From NCBI GenBank assembly GCA_024278345.1, contig JAJRTK010000296.1:1-10161 (forward strand): a stretch of 10,161 nt of DNA, given 5' to 3'. This DNA is from a bacterium (GTDB lineage Bacteria > CSSED10-310 > JAJRTK01). This document shows positions 3-4,447 of this stretch, in pieces; the first letter of the stretch is position 1, and the number at the start of each line of letters is the position of its first letter. The notes beneath the pieces are model-generated. The model worked only from the letters and a program-made list of their open reading frames with translations, was not told the origin of the DNA and did no database searches. The position numbers and the translations under genes are program-made.

Positions 3-237
3 GGGTATCAACGTAAGCCGGGACACCCGCCAAAACCAAGACGCAACGCGTCGTACATGAATGTGGGTCCAGGGAGCGAGCTCCCTGGTGGGTGCAGGGC
101 AAAGCCCTGCCGGGGACCGGGGCCGGAGGCCCCGGACGACCGCCGAGTCACGCGAAGCGTGACCCGCCGAGCGATAGCGAGGCGTTGGCGCTTGCGGTTC
201 CACAGTCCTGGAATTGTCCCGCGTTACGTGGATGCCC
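3..237. mobile_element. MITE-like palindromic element, copy 1
   Basis: This non-coding element is about 98% identical to copy 2 (3936-4200) over the shared 229 nt, apart from one swapped segment. Its ends are imperfect inverted repeats: positions 3-25 match the reverse complement of 215-237 at 19 of 23 bases, with the shared blocks ATC, ACGTAA and CGGGACA. Inside is a chain of hairpins: 69-77/80-88 (9 bp), 94-100/104-110 (7 bp, loop AAA), 117-124/128-135 (8 bp, loop GGA), 147-153/157-163 (7 bp, loop GAA) and a weaker CGCC/GGCG stem at 165-184. There is no transposase gene, so movement would need an enzyme supplied elsewhere. Only two bases of left flank are visible (AG), so the target duplication cannot be confirmed; they would fit a 9-bp but not an 8-bp duplication with the right flank at 238. 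The right end lies 35 nt before the ATG of the protease gene. Confidence 0.8.
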
Positions 238-3196: not shown

Positions 3197-3223
3197 GGGC
3201 GGTTCGTGAACCATCCGCCCTTT
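3197..3223. terminator. Terminator-like stem-loop between convergent genes
   Basis: GGGCGG (3197-3202) can pair with CCGCCC (3215-3220), followed by TTT on the plus strand. An inner GGTTC/GAACC stem (3201-3205/3208-3212) can stack on GGGC/GCCC as an alternative fold. It begins 11 nt after the plus-strand stop and abuts the methyltransferase stop at 3223-3225, so it could serve both genes. The T-tract is short, so rho-independent action is likely but unproven. Confidence 0.55.
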
Positions 3224-3897
3224 CACGGAACCTTTCCCGTGGCAACGACGAAAGGTTGATCCGGGTCCGACTGAGTTTCGATCTCCACCAGGCCAGCTTG
3301 GGCAAACCAGTTTTGCAGCTCAGCTTTGGTGACAGCTTGGCCGGCGACGAAATGCTTGAAATAGGCGGCGCTCAGGAGCCAGCCACCCGGCAGTTGCCAT
3401 CGCCACAGGCGGCAGAAGTTGCGCGCTCTTTGGGCCGTGGTCTCCCGATCCGCTTCGAGGATTCCCACAAGGCCACCGCTTCGGACGACCCGGGCCATTT
3501 CAGCAATCCCCCGGGCCGGTTCTGGCCAGTGCTTGATGCTGGCGACACTATAGGCGGTGCCAAACCGATCGTCGGCAAGTTCCAAGGCCATGGCGTTTTG
3601 TTCTTGGAAGCAGATGTTTTGGAGGTTCTCCGATTCTTGCCTCTGTTTGGCCCGCTGGATCATCGCCGACGCCAGATCGACACCAAGCACCTGGAGATCC
3701 GGCCGCCGCCTGGCAAGGATGCAGGCCACCGGCCCGGAACCGCATCCCACGTCCAGCACTTCGGCTCGCAGCGGGATCTTTGGATCGATTTCGTTGAGCA
3801 GTCGGATGTAGAGAGGCCCGATTCCCGCCGCCACGACCTCCTCGTAGAGCGCTGACTCCAGTGTGCCCCAGGAGCCTGTCATCTGGAAGATGTTCAT
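3223..3897 (-). CDS. Class I SAM-dependent methyltransferase
   Basis: The 224-residue product shows the Rossmann-fold methyltransferase pattern. Motif I is VLDVGCGSG (48-56), the SAM-binding glycine loop. Motif II is LGVDLASAMI (71-80), with D74 the likely ribose-hydroxyl ligand. NAMALEL (101-107) fits the adenine-contact region, and residues 117-150 cover the UbiE/Methyltransf_11-like middle and post-motif strands (MARVVRSGGLVGILEAD region). The substrate cannot be told; relatives act on lipids, quinones or small metabolites. The frame stays open to 4065, but that extension lies in the inserted repeat element, so ATG 3897 is taken as the start, without a clear ribosome binding site. The element's edge is 38 nt upstream, so the gene is separated from its ancestral upstream sequence. 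If the element and one target-site copy are removed, an in-frame ATG (4218-4216) appears 48 nt upstream, so the ancestral protein may have been 16 residues longer. Confidence 0.8.
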   Translation of the reverse strand: MNIFQMTGSWGTLESALYEEVVAAGIGPLYIRLLNEIDPKIPLRAEVLDVGCGSGPVACILARRRPDLQVLGVDLASAMIQRAKQRQESENLQNICFQEQNAMALELADDRFGTAYSVASIKHWPEPARGIAEMARVVRSGGLVGILEADRETTAQRARNFCRLWRWQLPGGWLLSAAYFKHFVAGQAVTKAELQNWFAQAGLVEIETQSDPDQPFVVATGKVP

Positions 3898-3927: not shown

Positions 3928-3935
3928 ACTCCCAC
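3928..3935. repeat. Target-site duplication, left copy
   Basis: ACTCCCAC directly abuts the left end of the element at 3936 and is repeated exactly at 4201-4208, directly abutting the right end. The match stops at exactly 8 bp on both sides, as expected for a duplication made on insertion. Confidence 0.85.
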
Positions 3936-4200
3936 GGATATCAACGTAAGCCGGGACACACGCCAAAACCAAGACGCAACGCGTCGTACATGAATGTGGG
4001 CTGGGATCCCGTTGCCCTTCGTTGCAACGGGAAGATGAGCGAGCTCCCTGGTGGGTGCAGGGCAAAGCACTGCCGGGGACCGGGGCCGGAGGCCCCGGAC
4101 GACCGCCGAGTCACGCGAAGCGTGACCCGCCGAGCGATAGCAAGGCGTTGGCGCTTGCAGTTCCACAGTCCTGGAATTGTCCCGCGTTACGTGGATGCCC
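3936..4200. mobile_element. MITE-like palindromic element, copy 2, with inverted ends and 8-bp target duplication
   Basis: This 265-bp non-coding element starts GGATATCAACGTAAGCC and ends in TTACGTGGATGCCC. The first 23 bases match the reverse complement of the last 23 at 18 positions. Perfect 8-bp direct repeats abut both ends. Against copy 1, bases 3939-4000 differ at one position and 4037-4200 at three. Between them copy 2 has 36 nt (4001-4036) where copy 1 has 6 nt (68-73). Internal hairpins are 4008-4015/4024-4031 (8 bp, new module), then those shared with copy 1, with loops AAA (one stem mismatch here), GGA, GAA and GATA. No coding capacity is credible. An 8-bp duplication with GG-starting ends is seen in several IS families, including ISL3, IS1595 and IS256; the parent cannot be assigned here. 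Confidence 0.9.
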
Positions 4201-4208
4201 ACTCCCAC
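4201..4208. repeat. Target-site duplication, right copy
   Basis: ACTCCCAC is identical to 3928-3935 and begins at the base after the element's right inverted end. Confidence 0.85.
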
Positions 4209-4344: not shown

Positions 4345-4447
4345 GGCCCATGACCTGAACCCAGGCACTGGGTTCAGGTCAAGCGTTTTCCCAGGCGCCG
4401 CCTGGGAAACTGCCGCAATTTGGAAAATTGCGGCTGAGCGGTGGGCC
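4345..4447. other. Cloverleaf-like array of three perfect hairpins inside a closing stem
   Basis: Three perfect hairpins follow in quick succession: 4352-4363/4369-4380 (12 bp, loop GGCAC), 4387-4396/4400-4409 (10 bp, loop GCC) and 4412-4421/4425-4434 (10 bp, loop GGA). Spacers are 6 and 2 nt. GGCCCA (4345-4350) and TGGGCC (4442-4447) pair around all three, making a four-way junction of 103 nt. It could be a structured RNA, a DNA cruciform-forming repeat or the core of another palindromic repeat. The sequence alone does not decide, and no transcript signal is evident on either strand. It lies in the gap between the methyltransferase upstream region and the 3' end of the crotonase gene. Confidence 0.7.

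Follow-up and report, generated by a model that had tools for sequence, protein, structure and literature searches.

A very abundant family of gene-less MITEs with 8-bp target duplications in an uncultured bacterium

Described gene-less repeats and the element in the window

Among the described systems closest to the element reported here, the Chunjie MITE of Geobacter uraniireducens is a 235-bp element (reviewed in PMC10969869). The present family resembles it, in a likeness of description only, in having tens of copies, conserved ends and direct repeats, variable length and many partial copies, and differs from it in its host and in being several times more numerous. The Correia elements of Neisseria and the ERIC elements are high-copy, gene-less and 100-200+ bp long, with inverted ends (PMC10969869); high copy number, the absence of a gene and inverted ends are all found again here, although the ends are others and the family is built as an ordered train of GC-rich hairpins. 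The Rickettsia palindromic elements, of ~150 bp, encode a conserved peptide and lie in frame within unrelated genes (PMC10969869). Palindromic structure and in-frame positions in genes recur in the present family (at the loci L172, L081, L117 and L114), whereas its members are 169-336 bp long, have clear terminal inverted repeats and 8-bp duplications, are mostly intergenic, and use different frames with no single conserved peptide. Elements of this kind are already well known, but the family is new, as are the details of its copy number, shared hairpin modules and in-frame insertions. The family, undescribed until now and very abundant, comes from a bacterial phylum that has been poorly sampled, and a text search of the literature with the end sequence returned no relevant paper.

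The window, that is, the whole stretch of DNA analyzed (10,161 nucleotides), is an entire contig (C222) of a draft genome of 6,061,821 bases in 550 contigs, which is 87.9% complete. Two copies of the element lie in it, the first preceded by just 2 bases, and the following features are relevant to their comparison:

3..237, forward strand: MITE copy 1, 235 bp, with the left flank lost at the contig start
69..88, forward strand: hairpin module of copy 1, CCAGGGAGCGAGCTCCCTGG; copy 2 has another module there (TCCCGTTGCCCTTCGTTGCAACGGGA and its surroundings)
3223..3897, reverse strand: host methyltransferase gene (Methyltransf_25), its ATG 38 bp from copy 2, with the element upstream
3928..3935, forward strand: left target-site duplication, ACTCCCAC, flush with the element
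3936..4200, forward strand: MITE copy 2, 265 bp, without a gene, with both ends and the flush duplication
3936..3958, forward strand: left terminal inverted repeat, GGATATCAACGTAAGCCGGGACA (family consensus GGGTATCCACGTAAGGCGGGACA)
4178..4200, reverse strand: right terminal inverted repeat, matching the left at 18 of 23 positions
4201..4208, forward strand: right target-site duplication, ACTCCCAC, flush with the element

Copy 2 together with both octamers spans 3928-4208. Its two ends, GGATATCAACGTAAGCCGGGACA and, after reverse complementation, GGGCATCCACGTAACGCGGGACA, form 23-bp imperfect inverted repeats with 18 of 23 positions identical, and the same octamer abuts each of them. Both features had been reported in a preliminary description of the window made from its letters, and both were confirmed, as was the statement that the element has no gene, since no transposase ORF lies within 3936-4200. 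The chance of a given flush 8-mer match is ~1.5e-5, and because a repeat of the same length, 8 bp, is also found at independent copies, the octamer of copy 2 is not a product of chance.

The preliminary description had further counted four to five differences between the two copies over about 229 shared bases, and had taken this near-identity to indicate recent movement. We found 5 differences in 229 shared bases (164 nt at 98% and 65 nt at 97%), plus one difference of a hairpin module, in that copy 2 has, relative to copy 1, a hairpin of ~30 nt swapped or inserted near 4000-4035. The identity itself therefore holds; as a sign of recent movement it is weak, because matches to the element across its own genome range from ~77 to 98% identity and gene conversion is possible; stronger evidence comes from the intact octamer.

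Ends, target duplications and copy number

A search of the host genome with a 20-base end pattern, allowing at most 3 mismatches, returned 268 matches, as against 0 in the reversed control, and with two ends per copy this corresponds to at least ~130 copies. BLAST with the element against the same genome gave at least 56 matches. The copies of the family in this single uncultured bacterium thus number well over 100. The end pattern was found in 0 of 144 other genomes, among them 7 of the same phylum, the nearest relatives compared, and a collection of 84,980 genomes did not contain the exact 23-mer end; searches with the element or its end gave no match in plasmids, phages or viral contigs, and the element had none in Rfam. 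For the survey of copies, ~1.3 Mb of the host genome was fetched. Of 254 ends in this material, 123 are no more than 700 bp away from where a fetched stretch stops, in most cases a true contig end, indicating that these repeats help to break the assembly; the MITE family explains in part why the genome assembles into 550 pieces.

Target duplications were assessed in 49 elements, 100-350 bp long, for which both flanks are present. Exact flush direct repeats of 8 bp border 19 of them and repeats of 9 bp another 4, lengths of 3-7 bp yielding 0-1 cases and lengths of 10-14 bp none. Consistent with these counts, the mean flank identity at 8 bp was 0.63 in the 49 elements, compared with 0.28 when left and right flanks were paired at random. 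Across 1.30 Mb, 37 elements carry a duplication that matches at 7 or 8 of 8 positions, and the length range of 23 elements with a duplication was 169-336 bp. Left and right ends share one common 23-bp consensus, GGGTATCCACGTAAGGCGGGACA, and the duplicated octamers show no strong consensus across copies. Nested insertions were observed at L136 (11782-12427, with the outer duplication TTGCCTTT) and at L133 (13308-13556, with two left ends).

The genome search for the ends and the listing of copies with their flanks had both been proposed in the preliminary description, which named copies without duplications, or with shared flanking homology, as evidence against its reading; the survey instead found flanks that differ and duplications that recur. 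The elements are short, lack a transposase gene, end in terminal inverted repeats, are bordered by duplications of fixed length and are present in many copies. Ends, duplications, copy number and gene-less interior therefore define a MITE family, and the earlier reading of copy 2, as a MITE with defined ends and an 8-bp duplication moved by transposition, is now backed by dozens of copies. Taken as a whole, the data are best explained, almost certainly in our judgment, by a MITE family moved by transposition, with the transposase acting in trans and generating the 8-bp duplications. We infer that a DDE transposase from elsewhere would recognize the 23-bp ends GGGTATCCACGTAAGGCGGGACA and move the element, which would be joined to staggered cuts 8 bp apart, and that host repair of the gaps would then leave the 8-bp duplication. 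The dozens of insertions with intact duplications, the nested copies and the in-frame insertions in genes provide a data set on spread without a visible transposase, and on how often gene-less elements become protein sequence.

Candidate partner transposases

The preliminary description had placed the mobilizing insertion sequence (IS) elsewhere in the genome and suggested looking for a complete IS that shares the ends. No such IS was found in the draft: none of 700-6000 bp with matching ends and a duplication is present in the 1.12 Mb examined, and the transposases that were located, of several families, are without these ends. Searches of the genome with PF01609 returned one ISAs1-like C-terminal fragment with ends other than those of the MITE, and searches for PF13808 and for IS256 returned none. 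Remnants of ISL3 end near GGCTCTTCGCCATC and the flanks of ISKra4-like remnants suggest ends GGGTGCGGCTCTTT, both unlike the MITE ends, and the two copies of IS1595 have no match to the MITE end. These negative results count against the explanation above, and its mobilization in trans is therefore a proposal. The longest non-tandem repeat, considered as a candidate IS, proved to be a paralogue of a host gene. At L109 (2517-2785), an IS110-like transposase fragment, identified by eye, adjoins a MITE copy that has no matching duplication.

Insertion sequences of the ISL3, ISKra4(ISMich2) and IS1595 types have GG or GGG ends and 8-bp duplications, GGG ends being those of the ISMich2 group. The present family, with its GGG ends and 8-bp duplication, fits enzymes of any of these three types, and remnants of ISL3, ISKra4-like and IS1595 transposases are all present in the genome. 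We give about even chances to the proposal that the parent was an IS of one of these types, either lost from the genome or missing from the draft assembly. Set against it are the ends of the members in this genome, the only ones compared, which differ in each case from those of the MITE, including those of the ISKra4-like remnants. This proposal refines the explanation by a trans-mobilized MITE and does not compete with it. The ISKra4/ISMich2 group is placed under p-MULT 4 (PMC3942029).

Insertions in genes and the hairpin interior

Each element with one octamer was excised in silico, and genes were then called by a simple codon-usage model. Insertions are intergenic in 21 of 31 cases, compared with 19% of random positions, and insertion upstream of genes showed no clear excess over the intergenic background. 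Copy 2 itself, 38 bp ahead of the ATG of the methyltransferase gene, may through this position influence the expression of that gene. Element plus duplicated octamer (element + 8) adds a multiple of three bases in 10 of 12 in-gene insertions, against 8 of 25 intergenic insertions (Fisher p = 0.004), a statistic that is approximate because some gene starts are called wrongly (as at L222 and at the copy in the window), several of the 12 in-gene calls being at the very edge of a gene. L222 was rejected as an in-gene copy, as its gene begins just past the element. Four in-gene copies, backed by flanking domains or sequence, are in frame and free of stops:

L172: kinase-AAA-TPR protein, element within the TPR stretch, residues 920-1001
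L081: TPR-containing membrane protein, element at residues 161-218
L117: methyltransferase, element between cysteine pairs at the protein start
L114: DsbD-like protein, element after the DsbD_2 region and ahead of the last hydrophobic segment

Another in-gene copy, at L124, is also open and lies in a protein without a known domain; the copy at L103 adds a multiple of three, yet contains a stop, and that gene is therefore truncated. The reading strands and frames of the element differ between genes, and the open frames vary between copies. The simplest explanation for the survival of in-frame copies is that selection acted against the rest: most surviving copies are intergenic, and those in genes would last chiefly where the added length is divisible by three and no stop interrupts the frame, the host protein then gaining roughly 60-85 residues. 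Separately, the kinase match of L172 (1318-5475) is split by ~100 extra residues (approximately residues 105-225).

In an alignment of the elements, GC-rich hairpins follow one another in order between the ends, and the interior holds no gene. Those of copy 2 include the following:

4007..4032, forward strand: internal hairpin TCCCGTTGCCCTTCGTTGCAACGGGA, a module absent from copy 1
4057..4073, forward strand: internal hairpin module GCAGGGCAAAGCACTGC, with one mispair
4080..4098, forward strand: internal hairpin CCGGGGCCGGAGGCCCCGG
4110..4126, forward strand: internal hairpin GTCACGCGAAGCGTGAC

Single copies are more stable in folding than shuffles (z -5.3 and -6.1). Covariation analysis found two-sided changes at only 3 of 32 consensus pairs, and we therefore claim no selected RNA fold.

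The module CCAGGGAGNNNNCTCCCTGG lies at 59 places close to these MITE ends only, at 18 close to those of a second family only, and at 21 close to both. This second MITE family has ends GGCCTCGGTCATGGTACCGGCCAC, 8-9-bp duplications and hairpin modules in common with the first; it was seen at L073 (~334-535, contig C5), L171 (13166-13412) and L131 (9795-9924), and its copy on C5, with the duplication GTTCAAGCG, lies in an ISL3 transposase gene. As the modules are common to families with different ends, they seem to be exchanged between elements or to arise repeatedly. GC-rich hairpin strings with GGGT-like spacers, including GTGGGTCCAGGGAGCTTGCTCCCTGGCGGG, were also observed at several intergenic-looking sites of the Ruminococcus MAG RUG14638 (L184 4256, L185 7260, L186 2651, L187 63 and L189 3433); they are without these MITE ends, and the loci scanned had no Rfam match.

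From the modules like CCAGGGAGNNNNCTCCCTGG in MITEs with unrelated ends and the similar strings in Ruminococcus, a broader reading can be drawn, which we consider rather unlikely: hairpin cassettes could form a common pool, with the element as one of its outlets and the hairpins swapped, for example by template switching, and with elements perhaps kept coding-compatible, so that insertions would often extend proteins instead of destroying them. Far less probable is that the element is of the REP/REPIN type and owes its movement to a RAYT (Y1) transposase. High copy number, hairpins and a bias to intergenic sites would speak for this; it is largely refuted by the 8-bp target duplications, which Y1 transposases do not make, and the sole Y1_Tnp match in the genome lies under the curated cut-off (E 1e-3), leaving no convincing RAYT. 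Least credible of all is a segment duplicated by recombination and bordered by octamers through chance, a reading to which the window alone, with its two copies, might lead, and which is refuted by the dozens of copies that share the 8-bp duplication although their flanks are unrelated.

Besides the transposed copies, for which we retain the MITE explanation, the window contains hairpins outside the element: with no further copy in the fetched DNA, three tandem hairpins (e.g., GACCTGAACCCAGGCACTGGGTTCAGGTC) occupy 4351-4440, between the MITE and an enoyl-CoA hydratase gene.
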